This document shows, one piece after another, positions 17,853-22,578 of a DNA stretch of 64,000 nucleotides (position 1 is the stretch's first letter; every line of letters begins with the position of its first letter). The position numbers and the translations under genes were made by a program. The notes under the pieces are model-generated. The model did not search any database, was not told where the DNA came from, and worked only from the letters and a program-made list of their open reading frames with translations. Source of the stretch: Acidimicrobiales bacterium (GTDB lineage Bacteria > Actinomycetota > Acidimicrobiia > Acidimicrobiales > DATDAH01); contig JAEUJM010000018.1 in assembly GCA_016794585.1 (NCBI GenBank), forward strand, positions 124,001 to 188,000, in the 5' to 3' direction.

Positions 17853-18935
17853 TCAGCGAACGAAGGACACGCCGTCGAGCGAGATGAAGCACGAGGCGTC
17901 CTCGAGGCCGCCGACTGCGCTGACGGAGACGAAACCCGTCGGGTCGATGACCAGGCGCCCGGGCTTGGCGTCGCAGAGGTCGACGCGCACGTGGACGGTG
18001 TGCGAAGGCCGCAGCTCCACGGGGAGGAACGTGACCTGCGAGGCCTCGCCGTCCTGGACGCCGCCGACGAAGCGGACGACGCCACCGACGAGCGCGGCCT
18101 TTGCCTTGCGGGTGCCGTAGGCGGCTCCGGTCCAGGTGCCCGCCAACGTCAGCTTGGTCGGCGCGTTCAGGCGGAACGAGGCGCCTTCGAGCGAGGTGAA
18201 GCACTGCGCGTCGCTGAAGTCCGCGGACGAGAAGACCTTCACCACGCCGTTCGGCCGGATGTAGAGCCGGCCGGGCACGCCGGCGCACAGGTCGACGGCC
18301 ACGTACACGTCCGCGCGAGGGCGCATGCCCACCGGCAGGACGAACAGCCGGCCCCTCGAGCCGTCCTGCACCGCCCCCCGGAACCGCACGGTGCCGTTGC
18401 TCACGCTCACCTTCGGCGCCCGGGTCGAATACTGGGTGGTGGTCCAGGTGTTGGCGAGGGTGACCGGTGAAGCCGGGCCCAGCGTGAACGACGCGCCGTC
18501 GAGGCTGGTGAAGCACTGGGCGTCGGCGAACGTGGCGCCGAAGCCGGCGTAGATGAACGCGTCGCCGTTCGGTTCGACGACGAGGCGACCGGCCCGCCCG
18601 CCGCAGACGGTCACCGGCAGGTAGACGTCGGCGGCCGGTCGCAGGCCCTCGGGCAGGGTGAAGGCGTAGGACGCGCTGCCGCTGGACAGCCCACCGCTGA
18701 GCACCACGGCTCCGTCGACGAGCGCGGCCAAGGGGGTGGCGGTGCCGTCCGGTGCACCGATCCACCCGTTCTGCAGGGGGAGGTTGGTGCCCCCTTCGCC
18801 GGGCGCCGCCTCCTGGCGGGCCCGCTCGGGGGCGGCGCCGGCCGGCGTGGCGACGGCCACGGTGAGGAGGCTCGCCAGCGCGAGCACGAGCGCGCCAGCG
18901 CGTCGCGCGAGGGAACGGGGTGCAGGACCGCCCAT
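17853..18935 (-). CDS. Secreted protein with three ~100-residue CFTSLDG repeats (paralog A)
   Basis: The 360-residue product has a Sec signal peptide (Arg-rich start, hydrophobic core ALVLALASLLTVAVA, AxA before about residue 35). It consists of three tandem repeats beginning near residues 54, 159 and 263. Each repeat reads roughly NGW..YGTR.AK, G.V.F.GAV..G, LP.GMRP, VYV..DLC, GRL.I.PNG.V and DAQCFTSLDGASF. The two Cys per repeat could form a disulphide. I know of no named domain for it; similar repeats occur in other actinobacterial exoproteins. It is followed, on the same strand upstream, by a paralog. Role unknown; a beta-rich extracellular adhesin or binding protein is inference. Confidence 0.8.
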   Translation of the reverse strand: MGGPAPRSLARRAGALVLALASLLTVAVATPAGAAPERARQEAAPGEGGTNLPLQNGWIGAPDGTATPLAALVDGAVVLSGGLSSGSASYAFTLPEGLRPAADVYLPVTVCGGRAGRLVVEPNGDAFIYAGFGATFADAQCFTSLDGASFTLGPASPVTLANTWTTTQYSTRAPKVSVSNGTVRFRGAVQDGSRGRLFVLPVGMRPRADVYVAVDLCAGVPGRLYIRPNGVVKVFSSADFSDAQCFTSLEGASFRLNAPTKLTLAGTWTGAAYGTRKAKAALVGGVVRFVGGVQDGEASQVTFLPVELRPSHTVHVRVDLCDAKPGRLVIDPTGFVSVSAVGGLEDASCFISLDGVSFVR

Positions 18936-19050
18936 CAGAGGTGTCTCTTCCTGTCGTCGGATCGTCGGCGAGCCTCCCGCCGACCGAGGGCGTGAGGCTA
19001 GACGGGGCCTCGGCGCGACTCAACGCGCCCCGGCCCCGGCGATCGAGGCG

Positions 19051-20121
19051 TCAGGGGGTGAAGCTGACGCCGTCGAGTGACGTGAAGCACTGGGCGTCGG
19101 TGAAGGTCACCGGGGAGGCCGTGCGCACCTCGCCGTTGGGGTCGATGATGAGGCGGCCCGGGGCCGCACCGCACAGGTTGGTGACGACGTACACCGTCGA
19201 GCTCGGGCGCAGGCCCTCGGGCAGGACGGTCACGAGTGAATCGCTGCCGCCGTTGAGCCCGCCGACGAGGTGCACGGTCGGGCCCGAGACGGCCGCCTTC
19301 GCGGCGCGCGTGCCGAAGGCCGCGCTGCTCCAGCCGTTCAGCGTGGCGAGAGGGTTGGGCGCCGACAGGCGGAACGTCGCACCCTCGAGCGAGGCGAAGC
19401 ACGACGCCGCGGCGAAGTCGGTCGCGGACTGGACCTTGACCTTGCCCGTGGGCAGGACGAGCAGGCGACCCACGGCGCCGTTGCACAGGTCGATGGCGAC
19501 GTAGGTGGGGCGGTTGGGGCGCATCCCGACGGGGAGCTGGAAGGCGGTGGCCCGCGTGCCGAGGGAGATCGCGCCGCTGAGGCGCACCGTGCCGCTCAGG
19601 ACCCGCGCCTTCGCGGGGCGGGTCCCGTACTCCCCGTTGACCCAGCCGTTGCGCAGCGTCAGCCTCGTCGCAGCGCCGAGGGTGAACGAGCGGCCGTCGA
19701 GGGAGGTGAAGCACTGGGCGTCGCCGAAGTCGTCGGCGGAGACGAACACCTGGCCGAGGTTGTTGACGATGAGACGTCCGCGCACCCCGCCGCAGAGGTC
19801 GGCCGGCAGGTACACCGTGGTGGTCGGGCGCATGCCCACGGGCAGGGTGGTGATCTGTCCGGAGGTCCCGCTCATCACCGCACCGCGGAACACGACCGCG
19901 CCGTCGACCACGCCGGCCGCCGGCGGCGCGGTGCCGTACACGGTCGTCGTCCAGTCGTTGACCAGCGTCAGGGGGCTGAGCGGGTCGAGCTCGGGCGGCC
20001 CCGCCTGGTTCGTGCGGGCGCCGGCGGGGCCGGCGCCGATCACCGTGGCGCCGAGGGCGACCAGCAACACCACGCTGGAAACGATTCGACGGATGGAACT
20101 CGGGGTGCGGCTGCCGCCCAT
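19051..20121 (-). CDS. Secreted protein with three ~100-residue CFTSLDG repeats (paralog B)
   Basis: This 356-residue paralog starts MGGSRTPSS like its neighbour (MGGPAPRSL), which fixes the ATG at 20121 rather than the longer frame to 20172. It has a signal peptide (RRIVSSVVLLVALGATVIG... AGA) and three repeats of about 100 residues, with conserved LPVGMRPTTTVYLPADLC, GRLIVNN and DAQCFTSLDGRSF in the first. The two Cys positions per repeat are kept, except that AASC replaces AQC in the second. Only 115 bp separate it from paralog A, so the pair arose by tandem duplication and is probably co-expressed. The cell-surface function is unknown. Confidence 0.8.
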   Translation of the reverse strand: MGGSRTPSSIRRIVSSVVLLVALGATVIGAGPAGARTNQAGPPELDPLSPLTLVNDWTTTVYGTAPPAAGVVDGAVVFRGAVMSGTSGQITTLPVGMRPTTTVYLPADLCGGVRGRLIVNNLGQVFVSADDFGDAQCFTSLDGRSFTLGAATRLTLRNGWVNGEYGTRPAKARVLSGTVRLSGAISLGTRATAFQLPVGMRPNRPTYVAIDLCNGAVGRLLVLPTGKVKVQSATDFAAASCFASLEGATFRLSAPNPLATLNGWSSAAFGTRAAKAAVSGPTVHLVGGLNGGSDSLVTVLPEGLRPSSTVYVVTNLCGAAPGRLIIDPNGEVRTASPVTFTDAQCFTSLDGVSFTP

Positions 20122-20223: not shown

Positions 20224-20886
20224 TCAGTCGGCGAGCGCGTGTCGGCCGTGGAGGCCCCAGGCGAGGAGGGCGCCGCCCGCGAGGGCGACACCCACGCCGG
20301 CCAGGACGGCGAGGACCCCGTCGGCGGCCAGGGAGGGCGCCCCGGGGCTGACCAGGAAGGGGCGCGAGTCGGCCCGACCGCGGTCGAGGCGGCGGTTCGG
20401 CGCCCGCCAGCCGCAGGTCACGGTGGTCTCTCCGGGCGTCGCGGAGAACCCGCCGACCGAGCGCAGGCCCCCGATGTCGGAGGCCACACCCTGGAGACGG
20501 CCGAGGACCTCCTGCTCGGTCCCGTCCGAGCGCACCACGGTGCACTCGGTCGACTGCACCTCGCGGTCGAGGCGGGTGCTGTTCCCGGTGTCCGGCGTGT
20601 CGAGGAAGATCGTGAAGTCCTCGCCGGTGGCCTCGTCGACGACGAACCGCACCGGGTCGGTGGGCCCGACCCCCTCGAGGCGTCCCTCGCCCACGGCGTC
20701 GTCGAAGGCGTCGGAGCGGAACTCGATCGACGCCCGGATGCCCCCGACGGCCAGGGCGACGCCGCCGATCAGCATCAGAGCTCCGATGACGATGCGGACC
20801 CATCCCCGTCGGTGCCGGCTGACCGGTTGGCCCGTGTGGTCGCGCGCCACGCCGACCGGCGTGACATCGGGGTTGGTCCAGGTCAC
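20224..20886 (-). CDS. Uncharacterised two-helix membrane protein
   Basis: A 220-residue protein I do not recognise. It has a hydrophobic segment near residues 30-49 (IVIGALMLIGGVALAVGG) and another near the C-terminus (GVLAVLAGVGVALAGGALLA), enclosing an extracytoplasmic domain of about 140 residues. That domain contains FTIFLDTPDTGNSTRLDREV and two Cys (STECTVV, TVTCGW) that may pair. The gene starts 19 nt after the end of the 525-residue gene upstream, so both are likely in one operon that ends before the repeat-protein pair. The start GTG is at 20886. Confidence 0.65.
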   Translation of the reverse strand: MTWTNPDVTPVGVARDHTGQPVSRHRRGWVRIVIGALMLIGGVALAVGGIRASIEFRSDAFDDAVGEGRLEGVGPTDPVRFVVDEATGEDFTIFLDTPDTGNSTRLDREVQSTECTVVRSDGTEQEVLGRLQGVASDIGGLRSVGGFSATPGETTVTCGWRAPNRRLDRGRADSRPFLVSPGAPSLAADGVLAVLAGVGVALAGGALLAWGLHGRHALAD

Positions 20887-20905
20887 GGCGGACCGGCGTC
20901 TTCCC

Positions 20906-22483
20906 TCAACCGACGACCGGCCAGCAATAGCGGTAGGGGGGCGGGGGCTCCCACTCGCCCACCGTGGAGACCCGCTCGGCCAGGTTCAGGATCTTGGCGC
21001 CGGCGCGGAGCACGGGGTTGTCCGGCAGCTCGTCGGGGACCACGGGTGGGCGCAGCTCGTTGCCCCGCTCGAGGTGGGCCAGCAGCACCTCGTGCTGGTA
21101 CCGGGCCCAGCGCTCGCGTCCGGCGGCGTACTCGGGTCGGTCCCGGTAGGCGATGACGATCCGTCGGGCGCCCTGGAGGCGACGCCGCTCCTTGCCGTCG
21201 GCGCACGGTTGGGCCGACCCGATGTTGGACGTCCCCATGTGGATCCGACCCACGAGGGGGAAGGGGCGGTCGATGGTGACCTGGGCCGAGGTGCAGTCGA
21301 ACGAGCGCACGCCGACGACCTCGAGGTAGGCCCGGAGCAGCTCCTGGGGGGTCGATGGCAGATAGGGGAACGGCGACGGGGTCGGCGGCGGGTGCTGCAC
21401 CCGTGGGTGGACCGCGTTGGCGATGGCGGTCCAGTTCAGGACCTCGATGTGGGTGCCGGCGAGGCTCTCGGGGCCCAGGGGGAGCGGCGCCTCGGTCCGC
21501 ATCTGGGAGACCACGGGGTCGGGGTCGGCGCCGGCGTGGAACACGAGCACGCCCTCCACGATGGGGACGATCGGGTAGCTGTCGCCGGTCTCCCCCGAGC
21601 TGCTCCCGTCGAGCGCGTACCACCGGTCCCTCGGCTCGGCGAACGTGCACAGGCGGGCGATCCCCAGGGTGGCCTCGGGCAGGATCCCGGCGCGTCCGAG
21701 GTACGCGGTGCCGAGGTCCTCGTCGAGGACGGAGGCCTCCCCCTTGCGCCGGGCCACCCAGGGCAGCCCGCCCGGGAACCAGGCGGCGCCGACGGGGGCG
21801 TCGACGGGCGCGTCGGGGAGGGCCGAGTGGACGATGTCCCACTCCACGACCCGCCCGGACTCCGAGTGGGAGGTGACGGCCGGGCTGATGCGGTCGGGCA
21901 CCCGGTAGACGCCGTAGACGAGATCGGGGCGGGCGCCGAGGCCGCTGCTGCGCAGGTAGGAGATGACCTCGGCGACCTGGGTGTGCCCTCGCGTGGCGAT
22001 GCGGCTCGTGAACACGGGCCAACGGTCGGGGGCGAGGTAGGGGGCACGGGCGGCGTCTCGCTGGGAGCGCTCCTGGGCGCCGATCTGGCCGGCGAGGCCC
22101 CGGTCCTTCTCGTGCTTCGGCGGGCTGGTGTAGGCGTTCTTCAGCTCCTTGCCGAACTGCCCGGCGGTCATCTTGAGCATGCCGCCGATGCCGCCGCTCT
22201 GGAGGGTGGCCATCTGGTCGGCCGCGGAGGGCCCGTAGAGGAAGTCGCCGGCCGGCCCGTCGAGCACCCGGTGGGCGTCGGCGGCGGCCGTGCCCTGCTG
22301 CTGGGCCAGGGTCGCCTGGGCCATCTGCGCGTCGTACGCGGCGCGCTGCTCCGGGGTCAACGACGCCAGCGCCGCCTCCATCTCCTCCTCGGTGGGAGGC
22401 TGGTTGAACGACGCCAGCCCCTGCTTGATGGCGTCGGGGCTCATGGCCTCCTTCGCCTGGCGCAGCGTGTCACGGAGACCCAT
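20906..22483 (-). CDS. Uncharacterised 525-residue protein
   Basis: The product has no signal peptide or clear membrane helix and I cannot assign a family. The first 100 residues are helical, Gln/Ala-rich (LASLTPEQRAAYDAQMAQAT), resembling a coiled-coil lead; the rest is a mixed alpha/beta domain with ATRGHTQVAEVISYLRSSG, a GLPWVARRKG loop and PPYRYCWPVVG at the C-terminus. The ATG at 22483 is chosen because CACTGT lies 6 nt upstream and MGLRDTLRQAKEAM is a natural beginning. The neighbour downstream is a small membrane protein in the same operon, so a membrane-associated complex is possible, but this is inference only. Confidence 0.7.
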   Translation of the reverse strand: MGLRDTLRQAKEAMSPDAIKQGLASFNQPPTEEEMEAALASLTPEQRAAYDAQMAQATLAQQQGTAAADAHRVLDGPAGDFLYGPSAADQMATLQSGGIGGMLKMTAGQFGKELKNAYTSPPKHEKDRGLAGQIGAQERSQRDAARAPYLAPDRWPVFTSRIATRGHTQVAEVISYLRSSGLGARPDLVYGVYRVPDRISPAVTSHSESGRVVEWDIVHSALPDAPVDAPVGAAWFPGGLPWVARRKGEASVLDEDLGTAYLGRAGILPEATLGIARLCTFAEPRDRWYALDGSSSGETGDSYPIVPIVEGVLVFHAGADPDPVVSQMRTEAPLPLGPESLAGTHIEVLNWTAIANAVHPRVQHPPPTPSPFPYLPSTPQELLRAYLEVVGVRSFDCTSAQVTIDRPFPLVGRIHMGTSNIGSAQPCADGKERRRLQGARRIVIAYRDRPEYAAGRERWARYQHEVLLAHLERGNELRPPVVPDELPDNPVLRAGAKILNLAERVSTVGEWEPPPPYRYCWPVVG

Positions 22484-22578
22484 GGCGTAACAGTGAAGCA
22501 CCGGCAGCCCGGCCCTGCTCGGGGACCGTCCGGTGGTGCCGCCTCGGGCCGAGTCACCCGCCCGCGGCTGCCCGCCCG

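Follow-up and report, generated by a model that had tools for sequence, protein, structure and literature searches.

The window, the stretch of 64,000 nucleotides of Acidimicrobiales DNA analyzed here, contains two adjacent genes whose products consist, beyond their N-terminal regions, of a tandemly repeated unit of about 97 residues. Sequence homology identifies this unit as the module that phage minor tail and tail-fibre proteins carry at the C-terminus (PHROG 3285), and we consider it probable that each of the two proteins represents a phage-type receptor-binding tip recast as a single secreted chain. Both the tail-tip identity of the unit and a rule of three in its copy number are new here. 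The case is built on computed results: homology, units that come in threes, cysteines that occur in pairs, a compact packing in the models and fusions to proteases.

Two adjacent genes for three-unit proteins

An earlier note on this DNA had described two tandem exoproteins at 17853-20121, and two open reading frames are found at that place, both on the minus strand and 115 bases apart (Table 1). Their products P0001 and P0002 carry an N-terminal stretch of basic and hydrophobic residues that closes with A-x-A, read by inspection as a signal peptide (all signal peptides reported here were called by eye), and each holds three units of 96-99 aa joined by short linkers. The note had seen no other domains in either paralog, and none was found in Pfam and NCBIfam searches. 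The units of P0001 and P0002 are 42-58% identical in pairwise comparison, far above chance, and match the unit profile with E values of 1e-31 to 1e-45, being themselves among the sequences from which that profile was built. The genome also encodes a third three-unit paralog, on a different contig (G000:C46:77376-78443); the six copies of roughly 100 residues counted earlier thus hold for the window pair, but the genome as a whole has nine. The reading frames of all three paralogs are intact.

Table 1. Genes and unit-profile matches of the pair; window position is the position on contig C18 minus 124000
Feature	Product	Window position	Strand	Content
Gene 1	P0001, 360 aa	17853..18935	minus	signal peptide; modules at aa 52-150, 158-254, 262-358
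Gene 1 module 1		18486..18782	minus	unit-profile match, G000:C18:142486-142782
Gene 1 module 2		18174..18464	minus	unit-profile match
Gene 1 module 3		17862..18152	minus	unit-profile match
Gene 2	P0002, 356 aa from ATG	19051..20121	minus	signal peptide; modules at aa 51-146, 154-250, 258-354
Gene 2 module 1		19684..19971	minus	unit-profile match
Gene 2 module 2		19372..19662	minus	unit-profile match
Gene 2 module 3		19060..19350	minus	unit-profile match

All nine units of this genome share a W, an LP...RP motif, one C, GRL and the signature A-x-CF-x-SL-x-G-x-x-F. The longer motifs that had been called invariant, namely LP.GMRP, DLC, GRL.I and CFTSLDG, are conserved only, with variants such as LPVELRP, VTVC, CFASLEG and CFISLDG.

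Relationship to a phage tail module

The minor tail protein family PHROG 3285 matches P0001 (E 9.9e-18) and P0002 (E 3.7e-22) in three stretches each, and it also matches five of their relatives with E values to 2e-28. In tblastn searches against phages, a single unit of the C46 paralog recovers tail-fibre and minor tail proteins, the best matches showing 35-39% identity, from phages of Geobacillus, Janthinobacterium, Streptomyces, Microbacterium, Paenibacillus and Bacillus; unlike the single module, the full-length protein gives no match. The homology to the module of PHROG 3285 (also 11445 and 3639) extends over about 97 residues and includes the LP.G.RP, GR(L/V) and SLDG motifs, as well as a C-terminal or near-C-terminal placement: in the phage proteins read, the module is C-terminal or, in EGole and Francob, located toward the C-terminus. 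The window proteins differ from these in being, by inspection, secreted from the cell, in a mature chain of three units only, in an added cysteine pair and in the lack of surrounding tail genes. Hence, they do not show the arrangement of a virion tail protein, in which the module lies at or near the C-terminus and the gene in a tail cluster.

No Pfam or NCBIfam family matches the window proteins above its curated cut-off, and a PDB sequence search returned no convincingly similar solved protein. The earlier statement that the repeat is not a named domain is thus correct for these two collections, with the proposed profile check returning no existing characterised Pfam family, but it does not extend to the phages, where the unit has homologs at the C-termini of minor tail and tail-fibre proteins. 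Because the module family lacks a Pfam or NCBIfam entry, annotations presumably list the proteins that belong to it as hypothetical.

Predicted structure

AlphaFold2 models P0001 (14-row alignment) with a mean pLDDT of 85.7 and a pTM of 0.81 and P0002 (10-row alignment) with 79.9 and 0.77, the five models of the first run having varied in pLDDT between 60 and 80. Disorder is confined to the first ~45 residues. A freely jointed chain of three domains is expected to yield a much lower pTM; with the confident values obtained here, the three units of each protein are predicted to pack as one compact body. In a Foldseek search of viral models, the first match is the minor tail protein of Microbacterium phage Truong (E 4.2e-14), whose gene itself carries three modules; its model aligns structurally with the complete three-domain body of the window protein, with TMq 0.75 and an rmsd of 3.0 over 357 columns that cover all three domains together.

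Against the PDB, the high-probability Foldseek matches are mostly phage receptor-binding proteins (RBPs), including Listeria phage PSA gp15 and the heads of the lactophage p2 and TP901-1 RBPs, at weak E-values (best 1.2e-3, range to 0.1). The fold predicted for one unit, of the head-type beta class, thus best matches trimeric phage receptor-binding heads. According to a review, three p2 RBP chains form a compact homotrimer, their head barrels packed around a threefold axis; it has glycerol bound and binds saccharides with a Kd of 0.13-0.26 uM. The TP901-1 RBP is likewise trimeric, with glycerol at the interface between heads (PMC3893620). These phage proteins have no detectable sequence similarity to the window proteins and contribute one head per chain, with the chains trimerising, whereas the window proteins have three units in each chain.

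Cellular relatives and the rule of three

Scanning genome contigs with the unit alignment recovers relatives in Sorangium cellulosum (two loci) and in MAGs assigned to Deltaproteobacteria, Rhodospirillales, Acidimicrobiales, Acidobacteriaceae and Alphaproteobacteria; unlike the repeat alignment, one whole protein used as query in the first contig scan found none. Further searches add the genome G702, which belongs to the class of Sorangium, and four proteins of G1527, a genome in the same family as the alphaproteobacterial MAG, and a plasmid search gave no match to the unit. The genome studied here is the sole positive among 395 sampled from its class and 40 from its order. Because the cellular distribution is this sparse, it suggests lateral transfer. 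In the Acidimicrobiales MAG, four adjacent three-unit paralogs (L008:3227-7727) lie beside a PAS-GGDEF-EAL gene, and the C22 locus of G1527 has three adjacent paralogs.

Seventeen of the 18 tandem cellular proteins, from nine genomes in several phyla, have three units and the remaining one has six; many of the 18 are paralogous or share ancestry and do not count as independent events, and we therefore withhold a p-value. Strongly diverged members, such as that of G702, also keep three units. The 19 phage proteins read carry either one module (12 proteins) or three (seven proteins), with none having two or four; the seven triplets all come from phages of the single host genus Microbacterium. 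In a tree of the units, the phage r1, r2 and r3 modules form three separate clades and the cellular units group largely by genome, and triplets therefore appear to have arisen independently in phages and in cells. The tree also shows recent duplication or conversion at the level of single units (L009 r1/r2 and L006 r5/r6). The cellular units thus look to be still undergoing exchange, yet their count stays a multiple of three.

These data bear on the idea, also raised in the earlier note, that the repeats build a surface fibre or matrix adhesin, that is, a string of independent beads whose number is functionally free. Tandem repeats with short linkers, a relative with six copies and the homogenization of repeats within genomes would all be in keeping with such a fibre; we nevertheless hold it to be unlikely because only three or six copies occur in all 18 cellular proteins, and the units are predicted to pack confidently against one another in one compact body, as in the model of the phage triplet.

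The Microbacterium phage triplets (Truong gp37, A3Wally gp101, Neferthena gp21 and others) are apparently phage-encoded single-chain trimer tips. They resemble the window proteins in having three tandem modules per chain and differ from them in that r1-r3 are long diverged and lack the cysteine pair, and in an extra N-terminal part. Their loci are L075:631-2733, L076:232-2691, L077:178-2664, L078:1213-2694, L079:199-2652, L080:1495-2961 and L063:2063-3523.

Single modules also occur in bacterial proteins. L054, L072 and L073 are short proteins in which an N-terminal hydrophobic stretch and a linker, maybe a coiled coil, precede one module; they are possibly secreted homotrimers that use the same module. 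Myxococcota tail-fibre-like proteins (L055:37-1794, L056 and L057) have one C-terminal module, and L055:37-1794 adjoins a large, seemingly baseplate-like ORF (L055:1788-3284) without a Pfam or PHROG family match.

A cysteine pair in the cellular units

Of the 45 cellular units aligned, the pair is complete in 42 and missing altogether from three, no unit having just one of the two cysteines; by eye, eight of the 12 units of G1527 have both and four have neither, giving for the combined 57 modules 50 with the pair, seven without it and no single cysteines. Both cysteines together are present in no phage unit examined. In the bacterial protein L072, which has a single module, two cysteines lie close to the positions of the pair, offset in the alignment. 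A scan of viral contigs with the cysteine-type pattern found no relative, which fits the pair being a cellular feature. Its joint retention or loss, and its absence from the phage units examined, are as expected of a disulfide acquired along with secretion; the two cysteines are most likely bonded in this way, which would suit life outside the cell.

Protease fusions and a proposed mode of action

The earlier note had proposed asking which enzymes carry the unit as an appended domain, and the answer is trypsin-like proteases: a Pfam Trypsin domain precedes the units in the two Sorangium proteins (three units each) and in that of the deltaproteobacterial MAG (six units), all with lipobox-like N-termini by inspection. 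Like the window proteins, these presumably secreted proteases (from S. cellulosum So ceGT47 and Deltaproteobacteria MAG DP_38) have cysteine-paired units in threes; they differ in the attached Trypsin domain, the window proteins having no enzyme domain. The fusions support a binding or targeting role for the units. A binding module, which the earlier note had offered as one reading, is the preferred one, and likely.

We propose the following mode of action. Most phages examined have one module per tail-fibre or minor tail chain, and three such chains would, by analogy with the solved heads, assemble into a trimeric tip. In the window proteins, three modules placed head to tail in one chain would form a three-lobed head of trimer-like geometry that needs no phage parts, and the cysteine pair added to each module would provide a putative disulfide stabilizing the secreted head. 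This head would most likely bind a cell-surface or environmental polysaccharide multivalently, acting as a putative free adhesin or lectin, and in the myxobacterial relatives, a head behind a trypsin-like protease would target the protease to a surface. The likely role is thus that of an adhesin that binds glycans, or of a head that directs a partner to its target. The fuller scenario, in which a domesticated phage tip has become a free secreted lectin, marked by three fused modules, a fixed count, a disulfide and sparse spread among phyla, and put to use by predatory myxobacteria in directing their proteases to surfaces, is offered more tentatively. A literature search of incomplete coverage found no precedent for single-chain tail-tip trimers or for secreted domesticated tips.

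Genomic neighborhood

Around the window pair lie genes for a luciferase-like monooxygenase, a DUF1295 protein, a GMC oxidoreductase, a TetR protein and a P450, together with some that have no Pfam match; a PHROG search of three window neighbors gave no match. The region is uniform in G+C content, and a promoter and terminator scan found neither. Upstream of the pair, at 20224-22501, two further genes on the minus strand encode a 220-aa protein that may have membrane segments and a 531-aa protein, both without a Pfam or PHROG match. Near the C46 paralog are a radical SAM/SPASM gene (L086:6609-8123) and an ISL3-type transposase gene (L086:12446-13108). The neighbors of the cellular relatives have no function common to them.

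A module of the phage host-recognition type could also serve defence: a secreted free head might cover, or compete for, the cell-wall glycan used by phages with the same tip. The proteins are free and present in several copies per genome, with paralogs side by side in the window and likewise in L008 and G1527, as such an anti-phage decoy might be; however, no defence genes occur among the neighbors examined and the myxobacterial protease fusions fit poorly with a pure decoy, which leaves this explanation improbable. Least credible of all, in spite of the homology to tail proteins, is a prophage or tailocin remnant that has lost its tail genes, since no phage structural genes were found among the neighbors examined of the window pair or the C46 paralog, which are of non-phage type, the N-termini are signal-peptide-like and the frames intact in three paralogs, the phage modules lack the cysteine pair and similar triplet proteins occur in unrelated phyla.

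Implications

If the reading as a secreted single-chain tip is correct, these proteins would show clearly that cells can take over the tip with which phages recognise their hosts and secrete it as a binding protein. It would also imply a structural rule for the family—either a homotrimer with one module per chain or one chain with three modules. The cellular members would then be natural monomeric, disulfide-stabilized binders, and their fusions to proteases suggest a use in targeting by predatory bacteria.
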